DNA from: a virus
Length of the DNA: 37,683 nucleotides
Reading direction: 5' to 3' (one strand)
Virus record (IMG/VR): IMGVR_UViG_3300037293_000133
Coordinates: 1 to 37,683 of that record
The notes under the pieces were generated by a model. It made no database searches. It was not told the DNA's origin and was given only the letters and a program-made list of their open reading frames with translations. This document shows positions 11,186 to 26,173 of this stretch, piece after piece. Position 1 is the stretch's first letter. Every line of letters starts with the position of its first letter. The position numbers and the translations under genes are program-made.

Positions 11186-11242
11186 CTATGTTTTTGAATA
11201 CTTATTTGATTTCAGCAGGGCGAAACATAAGATAACAGCCGC
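11186..11242 (-). pseudogene. Remnant of small membrane-protein gene
   Basis: The frame GVIAAVILCFALLKSNKYSKT ends at TAG 11186 and resembles VIGCFALLKYLPKWFKNID of the intact 37-aa protein at 13079. At DNA level the two share AGCAGGGCGAAACA and flanking bases. Here the 5' part is missing and the match begins at the attC-like border near 11236, as if an insertion removed the start. Confidence 0.4.
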
Positions 11243-11333
11243 TATAACGCCATTCTGCGAACGCCGGATAGCTTGGTGTTGTATGCAAGTGCTTAATCTG
11301 TGCTAAATTGAAAGTTTGTATTTCAAATACCAT
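11202..11333 (-). CDS. Possible 43-aa ORF running through the attC-like site
   Basis: The ATG at 11333 follows a leader (GCGTTGGCAAAAATATTTAATT) nearly the same as the one before the methyltransferase at 12931. Only the first 16 residues (MVFEIQTFNLAQIKHL) lie before the attC-like hairpin; the rest is its translation and adjoining DNA. It may be the truncated 3' ORF of the cassette rather than a functional gene. Confidence 0.3.
   Translation of the reverse strand: MVFEIQTFNLAQIKHLHTTPSYPAFAEWRYSGCYLMFRPAEIK
11229..11286 (-). repeat. attC-like hairpin C (3' end of YopX cassette)
   Basis: On the minus strand CATACAAC opens the site and GTTATC closes it; the outer arms AACA..GCTAT and ATAGC..TGTT pair with unpaired extra bases, as in integron attC sites. 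CATACAAC is the reverse complement of the first bases of the segment that starts at 12089 (TTGTATG). The site is related to the one at 25248-25310, sharing AACACCAAGCTAT and CGGCTGTTAT. Confidence 0.55.
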
Positions 11334-11440
11334 AATTAAATATTTTTGCCAACGCTTTTTTTAAAATAAATTAATTTTTACTTTTATAAGCCGTTTTAAT
11401 TTTTCAGTCAATATATCAAGGTCGTTATAAAAAATATGTT

Positions 11441-11641
11441 TTATTGTTTCTCCAAAAAGTTACCTTTCAATTTAACTTTTATCTTTTTATTACAACACCC
11501 TGCATAACCATCTTCAATAGAACTTTCCATTTGTTTTTTCTCCATTTGTTTTGCCACTAATATCACCTCGAATAAGTCATTAAAAGCATCTTTATAAGAT
11601 GCTTCTAATTGTTCCTCTATATATTCCACTGCTGTTTTCAT
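11441..11641 (-). CDS. Hypothetical protein, 66 aa
   Basis: A small acidic then basic protein (MKTAVEYIEEQLEASYKDAF...KKIKVKLKGNF) with a Cys pair. It lies 11 bp after the YopX gene in the same cassette-like segment and is AT-rich. No family recognised. Confidence 0.5.
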   Translation of the reverse strand: MKTAVEYIEEQLEASYKDAFNDLFEVILVAKQMEKKQMESSIEDGYAGCCNKKIKVKLKGNFLEKQ

Positions 11642-11652
11642 AATTTAATAAT

Positions 11653-12015
11653 TTAATAATTCATATAATAATTAATATCTTTGTGTTTTTCTTTATTTTG
11701 GTATATATTTCCAACGACTTCAAAACTTGTTGTATCTACATCTTGCATTACTTTTGTACCGTTCTTAAAGATAAAAGAACCATTATTAAAACTGCAATGC
11801 CAAAATTGCAAAACAGATGAGTGTTTCCTAAAATCTAATATTATATCTCCTTCAAAGATATATACATTTCTTGTATCTCTTAATCCAGAACATTGACTTA
11901 TATCTATCTCACTATTTTGGTTGCTTATGTCCCCGTTTTTTAAAAACTTCATAGTATAAGTGTCTGTAAATTGGCGTTTTGTTTTATTCCAGAATCTAAA
12001 ATTATTTTTTTCCAT
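11653..12015 (-). CDS. YopX family protein
   Basis: A 120-residue protein with the YopX layout: N-terminal FRFWNKTKRQF, then DISQCSGLRDTRNVYIFEGDIILDF (the family's C-T/S-G-L-x-D...YEGDI core), and a terminal FEVVGNIYQNKEKH. YopX proteins are common phage accessory proteins of unknown biochemical role. The gene is AT-rich compared with the phage backbone and lies within cassette-like segment 2. The ATG follows the leader word AAGCGATGG shared by neighbouring genes. Confidence 0.8.
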   Translation of the reverse strand: MEKNNFRFWNKTKRQFTDTYTMKFLKNGDISNQNSEIDISQCSGLRDTRNVYIFEGDIILDFRKHSSVLQFWHCSFNNGSFIFKNGTKVMQDVDTTSFEVVGNIYQNKEKHKDINYYMNY

Positions 12016-12082
12016 CGCTTAAAATATTTAATTATTTGTTTTGTTATTAATTGAAACTTTTGTGCTTTAAAGTCGCACCAGA

Positions 12083-12146
12083 CATACAACACTAAATATA
12101 ATTCATGCTAAAAAGCACGAAATTATATTATTTCCGTTAGCAGTAA
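12083..12146 (-). repeat. attC-like hairpin B (3' end of methyltransferase cassette)
   Basis: The arms AATATAATTCATGCT and AGCACGAAATTATATT pair with one extra base on one side and one mismatch, closed outside by AAC and GTT. The outer box TACTGCTAAC directly follows the methyltransferase stop and is the reverse complement of the first ten bases around 13030 on the other side of the gene. Imperfect stem, bulged base and AAC/GTT ends are the diagnostic layout of integron attC sites. Confidence 0.6.
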
Positions 12147-13030
12147 TACTACATTTGTTCTCCAAATGAAGTTACTACTGTAAATTCTTTTTCTTTTCTT
12201 TTTTCTTCCACCCTCTTTAAAGAAATATTAAAATACTCTTTGTTGTTTTCAATTCCTATAAAGTTTCTGTTTGTGTTTATACAGGCTATTCCTGTTGTAC
12301 AACTTCCGAATGTATTATCTAAAACCGTTTCGTTTTCGTTGGTGTATGTATTAATTAAGTATTCCATTAATTCAATAGGTTTTTGGGTTGGGTGTAGTTT
12401 TTCTTTATCATATTTGAAAGTTAAAATACTTTTTGGATAACCACTTTTAGTTTGTTTCCAAATTTTACCTTTTTCTCTACACTTTCTTTGCCCTGTTGTT
12501 TTAGTTTCAGAATTAACCTTATCAATATCAACATCTATTAATCCTTGTGGATTGTAACACATAGTCAAACACGTACTTGTTGCTGAACCCTCACTAAACA
12601 CACTAATATTTTCGTGTTGCTTTAATGGTCTTGCTTTTGCGTTTAAGTGTCCTGTTGCATTTAATTTATTCCAAATAAAATTATATTTGAACCATTTTAG
12701 ATTTGAGCAATTCAAAACACTTGTAAAGGGTTCTGTACTTGTTAAAACAACAGTGCCGTTTTTTACTAAAATTCGTTTATATTCTTCCCATAATTGTTCA
12801 ATTGGTATAATTATATCCCAAGCACAGGCAGTAGTTCCATAAGGTAAATCACAACAAATAAAGTCAATACTTTTATCAGGTATCAACTTCATTTGTTCTA
12901 TTGTATCTCCGTATCTTAAATCTATTGTCATATTTTAATTTTTAATATTTTTGCCATCGCTCAAAAAAGAAAAGAAAAAGGTTCTGTTCTCCGAATGGGC
13001 ATTTGTGGTTAATTACCGTACTACTGCTAA
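12090..13030 (-). mobile_element. Integron-cassette-like segment 1 (DNA methyltransferase)
   Basis: Starts G|TTAGCAGTA at 13030 and ends with attC-like site B, whose outer box TACTGCTAA is its exact complement. It contains one promoterless-looking ORF whose stop codon touches the attC-like site, the classical cassette arrangement. The preceding sequence (13025-13080) is itself an attC-like hairpin, so the segment joined an existing site. Confidence 0.6.
12149..12931 (-). CDS. Site-specific DNA methyltransferase (N4-C/N6-A, beta class)
   Basis: A 260-residue amino-methyltransferase. The catalytic motif DLPY is at 28-31 (CDLPYGTTACAWD), and the AdoMet-binding motif comes last (HPTQKPIELMEYL, then LDNTFGSCTTG), the order of the beta class. 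The region between carries the target-recognition part. There is no restriction enzyme gene beside it, so it is a solitary methyltransferase, most simply explained as protecting phage DNA from host restriction. It lies in a cassette-like segment and is AT-rich. In motif I the usual GSGTTG reads GSCTTG, a substitution worth noting but compatible with activity. Confidence 0.9.
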   Translation of the reverse strand: MTIDLRYGDTIEQMKLIPDKSIDFICCDLPYGTTACAWDIIIPIEQLWEEYKRILVKNGTVVLTSTEPFTSVLNCSNLKWFKYNFIWNKLNATGHLNAKARPLKQHENISVFSEGSATSTCLTMCYNPQGLIDVDIDKVNSETKTTGQRKCREKGKIWKQTKSGYPKSILTFKYDKEKLHPTQKPIELMEYLINTYTNENETVLDNTFGSCTTGIACINTNRNFIGIENNKEYFNISLKRVEEKRKEKEFTVVTSFGEQM

Positions 13031-13080
13031 CACGGTATAAAAGCCATTGAAAAAACGGCTCTTATACCCATCCGTTATTC
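13025..13080 (-). repeat. attC-like hairpin A (upstream of methyltransferase cassette)
   Basis: GGTATAAAAGCC and GGCTCTTATACC pair 11 of 12, enclosed by AAC (13029-13031) and GTT (13074-13076). It ends GTG|TTAGCAG, the start of segment 1. Extra unpaired bases lie on one arm only, as in attC sites. Confidence 0.5.
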
Positions 13081-13192
13081 ATCGCTTTCCAATTTTGTTG
13101 TTTAGGTCTATATTTTTGAACCATTTCGGCAAGTATTTTAGCAGGGCGAAACAGCCGATAACAAGCCCTATTAGTGTTAATATTTCATTCAT
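13079..13192 (-). CDS. Small membrane protein, 37 aa
   Basis: ATG at 13192 overlaps the TGA of the preceding gene (ATGA). The product is one hydrophobic helix (ILTLIGLVIGCFALLKYL) followed by a basic tail (PKWFKNIDLNNKIGKR). A 5'-truncated relative lies at 11186-11242 on the far side of the two cassette-like segments. The function is unknown. Confidence 0.5.
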   Translation of the reverse strand: MNEILTLIGLVIGCFALLKYLPKWFKNIDLNNKIGKR

Positions 13193-18687: not shown

Positions 18688-18760
18688 CGCGGGGTAGAAC
18701 AGTTGGCAGTTCGTTGGGCTCATAACCCAAAGGTCGGAGGTTCGAATCCTTCCCCCGCAA
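18688..18760 (+). tRNA. Initiator tRNA-fMet (CAT)
   Basis: A complete cloverleaf of 73 nt without encoded CCA. Acceptor CGCGGGG/CCCCGCA has the C1xA72 mismatch, the anticodon stem is TTGGG/CCCAA with three consecutive G-C pairs next to loop CTCATAA, and the D stem is GAAC/GTTC with A11-U24. These three features together define a bacterial initiator tRNA, not an elongator Met tRNA. T-arm is GGAGG-TTCGAAT-CCTTC. It is followed by a strong hairpin terminator. Confidence 0.93.
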
Positions 18761-18765
18761 CTCTG

Positions 18766-25247: not shown

Positions 25248-25310
25248 ATAACAGCCGTTATAAAGCAATTCTCCTAACGTCGAACAGCGTATAGCTTGGT
25301 GTTGTGTGTA
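25248..25310 (-). repeat. attC-like hairpin E (3' end of Dam cassette)
   Basis: Opens with TACACACAAC right after the methyltransferase stop and closes with GGCTG|TTATT. Outer arms AACACCAAGCTATA and its partner CAGCCGTTATA pair imperfectly with unpaired bases. TACACACAA is the exact complement of the segment's own start at 25777. Related in sequence to site C at 11229-11286. Confidence 0.55.
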
Positions 25311-25777
25311 ATACTACTTTTGTCTTCCATCAAACACCACCAACATACTATCGTGCATACCACATTTGCCCGTAACATATTCCCCTTTAGTATTTATGCC
25401 ACAAAATTTTATTCTCTTTTCAATAAACCTTATTTCATCACTATTCGGCAATATATGTTTATGAAATAGTTGGGTGCTTGTACTTACAGGCAAGAGCATT
25501 ACACACAATTTACCTTTCTTACTTTCCTCTATTGCCTTAATTACGAACGCATCTTTTAACTTTCTGCTGTAAGGAGGGTTAATAAAATTTCGTTCCTTCC
25601 AGTCTACATTTAAACCATTGTGCTTTTCAATATCATTTTGATACGGGCAAGGGTCATAGTTAAAATCAAATTCCTTGTTTATTTTATCATAAAAGTAAGG
25701 CGGTGTAGCCCAGTCGTCTTTATGAGGTATATTTCTATCTTTCATATTTATTGCTTATTTACCCGTACTACACACAA
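25252..25777 (-). mobile_element. Integron-cassette-like segment 3 (Dam-type methyltransferase)
   Basis: Starts G|TTGTGTGTA at 25777, contains one ORF whose stop touches the terminal attC-like site, and ends with site E, whose outer box complements the start over 12 bases (TACACACAACAC). It follows the long attC-like site D. Same orientation and organisation as segments 1 and 2, more than 12 kb away. Confidence 0.6.
25314..25745 (-). CDS. Phage N6-adenine methyltransferase (Dam, PF05869 type)
   Basis: A 143-residue DNA adenine methyltransferase. Family features: DDWATPPYFYDKINKEFDFNYDPCP at the N-terminus (10-34), the catalytic NPPYS (56-60) and VMLLPVSTSTQLFH. The length is close to the usual 150-170. 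No restriction partner is nearby, so anti-restriction or regulatory methylation is likely. It is the only gene of cassette-like segment 3 and opposes the structural operon around it. The phage thus carries two unrelated methyltransferases, both in cassette-like segments. Confidence 0.9.
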   Translation of the reverse strand: MKDRNIPHKDDWATPPYFYDKINKEFDFNYDPCPYQNDIEKHNGLNVDWKERNFINPPYSRKLKDAFVIKAIEESKKGKLCVMLLPVSTSTQLFHKHILPNSDEIRFIEKRIKFCGINTKGEYVTGKCGMHDSMLVVFDGRQK

Positions 25778-25905
25778 CACGTGGTATAGTGCATAGCGGT
25801 TTTGTTTTTTATTCAAAGTTTCTTACTATCTATTAAGTTCTGTTCTTTTTGATAGGTTCGTGAATTTAATCCGCTACGACACCATACCACCATACGTTGT
25901 AAGAA
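25771..25905 (-). repeat. Long attC-like hairpin D (between resolvase remnant and Dam cassette)
   Basis: Arms 25776-25799 and 25871-25898 pair over about 20 bases (AAC, GTGGTAT, GTG, TAGCGG and complements) with unpaired bases mainly on one side, separated by a 71-base AT-rich loop. Ends are AAC and GTT. Size (about 130 bp) and layout resemble large attC sites of chromosomal integrons. Its opening arm supplies the last codons of the truncated resolvase. Confidence 0.55.
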
Positions 25906-26173
25906 ATACTACAAAAACGATACCTTTTGTGTGCATCCATTCGCTTAACTCAATCAGGTCTTTAATGCTCCGACCTAATCGGTCAAGCCGCCAAACTACG
26001 AGCGTGTCACCTTTACGGATGAAGTTTTTTAGTTCGTCAAGTTTTGGGCGTTGTTTGGTTGCCCCCGACATGGTATCGGTATAAAAGTGTTCACAACCCG
26101 CAACTGATAATGCGTCAATTTGCAAATCTGGATTTTGTTCGTGCGTAGAAACACGCGCGTAACCTATTTTCAT
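25874..26173 (-). pseudogene. Truncated serine recombinase (resolvase/invertase N-terminus)
   Basis: The first 80 residues are a clear resolvase catalytic domain: MKIGYARVSTHEQ with the active Ser9, then DTMSGATKQRPKLDEL and VVWRLDRLGRS with the catalytic arginines. After MHTKGI the family sequence stops, and the last residues (FLTTYGGMVS) are encoded by attC-like site D. The long helix and the C-terminal DNA-binding HTH, normally another 80-100 residues, are absent. It is probably inactive, or a catalytic domain without target binding. It is coupled to the upstream gene by ATGA overlap. Confidence 0.85.

Follow-up and report, generated by a model that had tools for sequence, protein, structure and literature searches.

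Integrons serve bacteria, and as found recently also archaea, as platforms for gene capture; few have been reported from phages. The 37,683-base IMG/VR virus record analysed here over its whole length, hereafter referred to as the window, raises the question of how a DNA methylase gene in such a virus came to be bordered by ends of integron form, and which enzyme could have placed it there. The answer suggested by the sequences, to which we give a probability of roughly 0.8, is that an integron-type cassette, for which excision as a circle and recombinase-driven insertion are proposed, carries the methylase as cargo. Larger phages with the same kind of cassette look like carriers of a matching integrase, and the viruses may have their own means of gene shuffling, comparable to that known from bacteria.

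Three cassettes lie on the minus strand of the window; in each, an attC-like hairpin stands 5' of the gene, and a box that matches the start of the same cassette stands on its 3' side. In the following list, R1 designates a covariance model built on 17 hairpins, all from arrays adjoining phage integrases (two of 19 short hairpins were dropped from the training set), and its E-values are rough.

13074-13078, minus strand: left array junction, ..ATAAC, common to the sister phages L222, L223, L224 and L090
13073-12136, minus strand: N6/N4 methylase cassette
13032-13073, minus strand: attC-like hairpin of the methylase cassette (R1 match at 13024-13081 including the flanking boxes, 44.5 bits, E 9.8e-10)
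13022-13031, minus strand: 5' box GTTAGCAGTA of the methylase cassette
12149-12931, minus strand: DNA methylase ORF, 260 aa (PF01555, N6_N4_Mtase, E 4.1e-29)
12136-12145, minus strand: 3' box TACTGCTAAC of the methylase cassette, exact complement of its own 5' box
12135-11278, minus strand: YopX-like gene cassette
12091-12135, minus strand: attC-like hairpin of the YopX cassette (R1 match at 12083-12143, 37.8 bits, E 6.9e-8)
12081-12090, minus strand: 5' box GTTGTATGTC of the YopX cassette
11653-12015, minus strand: YopX-like ORF, 120 aa (PF09643, E 1.3e-11)
11441-11641, minus strand: second ORF of the YopX cassette, 66 aa, no Pfam match
11278-11287, minus strand: 3' box TGCATACAAC of the YopX cassette, its complementarity being limited to the 8 bases CATACAAC
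11268-11277, minus strand: right array junction, flank ACCAAGCTAT.., common to L222, L223 and L224, the L090 contig ending earlier
25895-25301, minus strand: Dam methylase cassette (third cassette)
25779-25895, minus strand: attC-like hairpin of the third cassette (R1 match at 25771-25903, 39.0 bits, E 3.1e-8)
25769-25778, minus strand: 5' box GTTGTGTGTA of the third cassette
25314-25745, minus strand: Dam methylase ORF, 143 aa (PF05869, E 3.8e-21)
25301-25310, minus strand: 3' box TACACACAAC of the third cassette, exact complement of its own 5' box

The self-complementarity that an earlier note on this DNA had seen between the 5' end of the cassette and the box following the ORF stop is exact: GTTAGCAGTA (13031-13022) and TACTGCTAAC (12145-12136) are reverse complements, the complementarity extends to 13 of 14 bases, and the TACTGCTAAC box starts three bases past the stop codon of the methylase ORF (12931-12149). 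Within the window, the boxes are complementary at 10 of 10 bases in two cassettes and over 8 bases in the YopX cassette. The imperfect hairpin with a bulged base and AAC/GTT ends described in the same note is also present, at 12091-12135, the bulged base being a T. The covariance-model search that it had recommended returned three window sites at E < 1e-7 with R1, the next match being at 0.48; the attC-type features (inverse boxes, AAC/GTT, imperfect stem) are thus found at three window sites by a model trained elsewhere. A generic scan for AAC-hairpin-GTT folds, applied to the window alone, gave 9 sites for a shuffle mean of 7.5 and did not discriminate; our conclusions rest on the trained model and on array statistics. 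A further attC suspected by eye around 11238-11291 was discarded, having neither a model match nor a complementary end for GTTATCTTAT nearby. Transposon-like or invertible elements were also set aside, since one hairpin per gene with complementary boxes fits the logic of cassettes.

Other features of the window deserve mention. The same ten bases, ACCAAGCTAT, follow both arrays (11268-11277 and 25291-25300). The methylase leader contains a CTTTTTCTTTTCTTTTTT tract whose exact complement lies at the end of the ORF (12963-12980 with 12187-12204), and an exact complement of 17-19 nt is found in the last 160 nt of 24 of the 28 scored cassettes with a CTTTTTCTTTTCTTTTTT-type tract, also around different genes, with controls mostly at 4-10 (one at 18) and some of the 28 cassettes belonging to near-identical phages. 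A serine recombinase ORF (resolvase, PF00239) of 99 aa, at 25874-26173, enters the third hairpin by 22 bases and stops there, as if the third cassette had been inserted into this gene. The motif around GCCATCGCT (plus strand) is repeated at 11336-11356, 12006-12024 and 12941-12961, ahead of several ORFs of the region, and is perhaps a leader or promoter element. The phage carries a tRNA-Met (CAT) gene at 18688-18761, and tRNA alone was matched in an Rfam search of the window at gathering scores. Its host phylum is probably Bacteroidota, as suggested by its Flavobacterium and Polaribacter phage relatives.

Of 16 IMG/VR relatives of the methylase (L003-L018, a set that leaves aside the near-identical phage L002), 10 lose DNA homology to the window at 12134-12136, and 12 lose it at 13033-13052. 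GTTAGCAGTA is exact at the cassette start in 12 of the 16 and TACTGCTAAC at the cassette end in 10; neither box is present at the methylase in L008, L011, L012 and L015, which indicates that this gene also occurs without ends of this type. The 17-mer TGTTAGCAGTAGTACGG was retrieved in nine genome stretches, five of them (L105, L106, L108, L112, L113) with the hairpin preceding it, and in 60 viral stretches, of which L026, L048 and L051 seem to be unrelated. After exclusion by hand of L026, L048, L051, L107, L109, L110 and L111, a matching downstream end was found for 48 of 60 distinct cassette starts, around different genes, and six of the 12 starts without such an end have less than 900 bases of downstream sequence. 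The hairpin criteria used around the 17-mer were loose, 70 of 77 cases passing, at least four of which (L026, L031, L055, L061) look like chance folds. At 80 boundaries identified by the hairpin pattern, an own end matching at 7 of 7 was present within 3.2 kb in 46 (13 of 32 when counted by box type), whereas the controls for the same boundaries gave 2.0% (other boxes), 4.4% (upstream) and none (shuffled boxes). The self-complementarity of cassette ends exceeds chance.

Five records were found using the neighbouring helicase-like gene as query. Left of the array, 497-500 of 500 nt are identical between the window and L222, L223, L224 and L090; on its right, 498-500 of 500 nt are identical in L222, L223 and L224, the L090 contig having already ended. 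At this shared junction, L222 holds the two cassettes of the window, L223 a single cassette with an RNA ligase, and L224 a different N6/N4 methylase followed by the window's hairpin and YopX cassette, while L090 displays the order of L224 with one extra cassette, situated exactly behind AATAAC. The spacer left of the first hairpin (13068-13073) reads GGATGG in the window, TTTTA in L222 and GAATGG in L223, with the same core and flanks. Among isolated Flavobacterium phages, mymlan6-1 has a window-type methylase where mumin6-3 has another, with the ends GTTAGTGGCA..TGCCACTAAC; the switch falls at GCTAACG, and the adjoining 1.5 and 4.0 kb show identities of 99.5% and 99.9%. These exchanges designate hairpin-gene-box as the moving unit. 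The hairpin attributed to the methylase in the earlier note (12083-12146) has consequently to be reassigned: the hairpin at 12091-12135, together with the YopX gene, follows another methylase in L224 and L090 and, on these comparisons, is part of the YopX cassette, an equal hairpin at 13032-13073 preceding the methylase and belonging to its cassette. The core of that note, a DNA methyltransferase on an integron-type cassette, agrees with the ends, with the hairpin found by the model and with the exchange at one junction in near-identical phages. The empty site that it expected was only approached: no exact one was found among the relatives of the junction, and L225 (91.7% identity on the left), which has no cassette there and reads GATGAATAAAG, is suggestive only, because its sequence diverges at the junction.

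Concerning the enzyme, none of the window ORFs of at least 60 aa is related to the integrases of four MAGs holding the cassettes, and the window, which may be a fragment, corresponds to the definition of a CALIN, with neighbouring sites at 13.0 and 12.1 kb and no integron integrase. With the four MAG recombinases as phmmer queries, L060 and L054 were found to encode a tyrosine recombinase of about 265 aa directly behind their arrays; L010 contains the beginning of such a gene, and partial ORFs were matched in L045 and L131. An IMG/VR scan gave 147 recombinase relatives, of which the best 80 were retained; AAC-TATTATATA or a similar sequence lay at most 110 nt upstream of the match at 72 of 78 loci, versus 71 of 1600 random windows. 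This constant site, AAC|TATTATATA, located between array and recombinase gene, marks a breakpoint: in 14 locus pairs, an identity of 91.7-100% over 400 nt right of the AAC is lost 4-6 nt to its left, these pairs being drawn only from loci with differing left sides and several of them sharing loci. Over 45 non-redundant loci, 168 sense and 2 antisense hairpins occupy the 3.5 kb upstream of the recombinase (2 in the shuffled upstream control), and 2 sense and 0 antisense hairpins its downstream side. An attI beside the integrase gene, with cassettes joined to it, therefore seems to exist in related phage contigs. At 3 of 51 integrase loci no hairpin was found. The 217 cassettes of 51 arrays, with 104 box types, have own ends matching at 7 of 7 in 87 cases and at 6 of 7 in 51 (138/217), the random-pair control being 1.2% and 3.7%, respectively; a full match across one hairpin, between neighbours, occurs in 0 of 221 cases, no better than chance. 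An unequal bulge is missing from 130 of 223 hairpins. ORF-less stubs, such as GTTATGGCA-TCGTTTTAATG-TGCCATAAC, sit right at the attI-like site in L152, L162, L164 and L189. PHROG matches were obtained for 6 of 10 proteins near the integrases, including a DNA polymerase, a helicase and an RNA ligase/tail-fibre catalyst.

The catalytic residues R131, K156, H215, R218, H241 and Y250 of this recombinase are invariant in 40 of 40 sequences. Three phage-type proteins stayed under every NCBIfam cut-off, with a XerA-like model ranked first and the integron model (TIGR02249) second. A profile of the 40 sequences matched 4a8e (XerC-like, 1.8e-50), 5hxy (XerA) and 2a3v (IntI4) in the PDB, the last in two stretches separated by 81 residues in IntI4 and 33 here. 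For the AlphaFold model (pLDDT 85.9, pTM 0.60), the nearest fold among the matches listed, a list from which the absence of a family excludes nothing, was XerA 5hxy (Z 22.7, rmsd 11.4, 256 aligned), and IntI4 was aligned over 261 residues of 320 (Z 18.7, rmsd 15.0); the large rmsd values probably reflect the domain arrangement in the model. According to PMC9668308, an additional domain serves to define IntI. On these alignments, the phage recombinase appears to lack this domain. Tools requiring it would not call such an integron complete, and the question is raised of how an integrase lacking it could use hairpin sites. The integrase is matched by 260 of 50,697 phage records, all under 60% identity, so that no isolate with this integrase was found.

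Gene polarity was scored relative to a hairpin arrow defined by the long spacer (4-7 nt) coming first. In the phage arrays, the longest ORF of at least 50 aa runs along the arrow in 177 cassettes and against it in 7, 33 having no such ORF. A sample of 299 Flavobacteriales genomes also contained integrase relatives (E 1e-60 or better), in 105 of them, and hairpin model matches were present in 54 of 199 Flavobacteriales genomes; around the integrase relatives, 5 of 20 genome regions had model matches at E 0.1 or better and 15 had none. On two such regions (L256, L239) and 12 more picked for their hairpin matches, all 20 ORFs of at least 60 aa run against the arrow (0:20), 18 of 22 cassettes have ends matching at 6-7 of 7 (6.0% at random), and the integrase is opposite in strand to the hairpins in 6 of 7 regions with both, L282 being phage-like. 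These genome arrays are likely chromosomal; the bins may hold phage contigs. Their attC lies on the 3' side of the gene, which is the usual integron form; relative to them, the phage cassettes are inverted and depart from this form. The ORF had been read in the earlier note as pointing toward its attC; the unit is instead hairpin-gene-box, with the gene inverted relative to the Flavobacteriales genome arrays.

These orientations bear directly on the view that the window is an ordinary CALIN, composed of classical bacterial cassettes with attC 3' of the gene and brought by an IntI-type integrase of the host. Its ends and hairpins are of integron form, similar arrays exist in Flavobacteriales genomes (the 54 of 199 with a model match), and IntI1 used five of six tested phage attC sites in E. 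coli, one of them from Polaribacter phage P12002L (Qi et al. 2023, PMC9892861). Such an origin is nevertheless unlikely in our opinion, as the hairpin is exchanged together with its downstream gene, the ORFs accompany the arrow at 177:7 in phages versus 0:20 in genomes, and the arrays adjoin a recombinase without the IntI domain.

The hairpins themselves show a more complex history. Similar cassettes (at least 80%) from different records form 23 pairs; in 19 pairs the sequence upstream of the hairpin is different, and of these 19, 10 have a left hairpin with more than 0.85 identity and 1 has the right 60 nt at this level. Cassette pairs (18) were also picked for differing outer flanks on both sides; five pairs of at least 97%, some of them interdependent, combine differing flanks on both sides with a left hairpin identity of 0.97-1.0. 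At 80-95% cassette identity the left hairpin often differs between copies, which suggests that hairpins also exchange by themselves. Moreover, a search with one hairpin alone gave 30 distinct contexts, which comprise 13 right and 29 left boxes, and sister phages have the hairpin core in common while their spacers differ. Plain homologous recombination, with hairpins as conserved linkers and internal crossovers shuffling genes without any site-specific enzyme, would account for these last observations, but it leaves unexplained the cassette-specific match of the two ends, the AAC junctions of the mymlan and mumin phages, the one-cassette difference between L224 and L090 and the breakpoints at the attI-like site, and we judge it decidedly improbable. 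A role of the hairpins as transcription terminators or mRNA elements, beside a recombinase that would be an ordinary phage integrase adjoining them by chance, is in line with their intergenic position in one orientation and with the statement, cited in Qi et al. (PMC9892861), that attC sites may be weak terminators, but it predicts neither the complementary cassette ends and constant integrase breakpoint nor the single-cassette differences between sister phages, and is hardly credible.

In the integron-type cassette that we favour, the unit consists of a hairpin, a 5' box GTTANNN.., a gene and a complementary 3' box ..NNNTAAC, neighbours being joined AAC to AAC. The cassette would leave as a circle, in which the two boxes and the hairpin would form one fully paired attC; the recombinase would exchange strands at G|TT (AA|C on the other strand), and circles would be inserted at the constant attI-like site or at other attC or AAC-like sites. 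Because the window phage shows arrays without integrase, it would rely on an integrase supplied in trans by a co-infecting phage or by the host, and homologous recombination via shared hairpins would act besides this enzyme. More generally, it seems fairly probable that Bacteroidota phages own a separate class of integrons, with a compact Xer-like integrase devoid of the IntI domain, an attI of their own, inverted genes and a pool of anti-restriction and other small genes shared with smaller phages having arrays only. As the attC arms match fully only in the excised circle, capture might in this class be favoured over loss by a built-in ratchet.

The 138 cassette proteins of the integrase-linked arrays have few Pfam matches, spread over 12 families, with N6_N4_Mtase in 4 and MT-A70, D12, RNA ligase, Lar restriction alleviation, exonuclease and others in one protein each; methylases lead among the 25 PHROG families listed of 56. 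The benefit of the cargo could be anti-restriction, a methylase letting the phage alter its protection against host restriction. In Nilsson et al. 2020 (PMC7077304), muminphages plating poorly on one host lack a specific methylase of the better-plating ones, and the cassette swap between mumin and mymlan phages is a candidate route to such plating differences. A virus-encoded version of the integron, with its own integrase, would explain the precise swapping of orphan methylases and small genes.

Phage attC clusters, including methylase cassettes, have already been published: Qi et al. 2023 (PMC9892861) report 17 of them, some in virulent phages, and two methylase cassettes in P12002L. The rarity of phage cassettes put forward in the earlier note is thus a fair statement, but this study, with its P12002L methylases, came before. 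P12002L, like the window, combines attC sites and methylase cassettes in a virulent phage without integron integrase; it has three model matches, one of its methylase cassettes ends as the window's YopX cassette does (3' end of TGCATACAAC type), and its cassettes are of the window's cassette family. Neither an associated phage integrase of the present type nor an inverted unit figures in the available part of Qi et al., and no report of an integrase-bearing, inverted phage integron was found in the literature searched, which comprised few subscription papers and no bioRxiv preprints. In Bacteroidetes proper, one complete integron, in Salinibacter, is named in the IntegronFinder 2.0 paper.

The phage system shares with integrons a tyrosine recombinase, an adjacent attI-like site, arrays, complementary ends and AAC/GTT hairpin sites, but differs from them by an integrase lacking about 48 residues in a stretch where IntI is longer, by genes inverted relative to the hairpin and by its location on phage contigs. 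The Flavobacteriales arrays (L256, L239, L278, L280 and others) have the same hairpin type and end complementarity, with integrases 40-54% identical where compared; unlike in phage arrays, their genes, and the integrase in 6 of 7 regions, are opposite to the hairpin arrow. XerA-type and other Xer recombinases, enzymes that act on a single dif site to resolve chromosome dimers, are the closest solved relatives of the phage enzyme, by sequence (4a8e) and among the fold matches listed (5hxy); the phage enzyme differs by its position beside arrays of hairpin cassettes.
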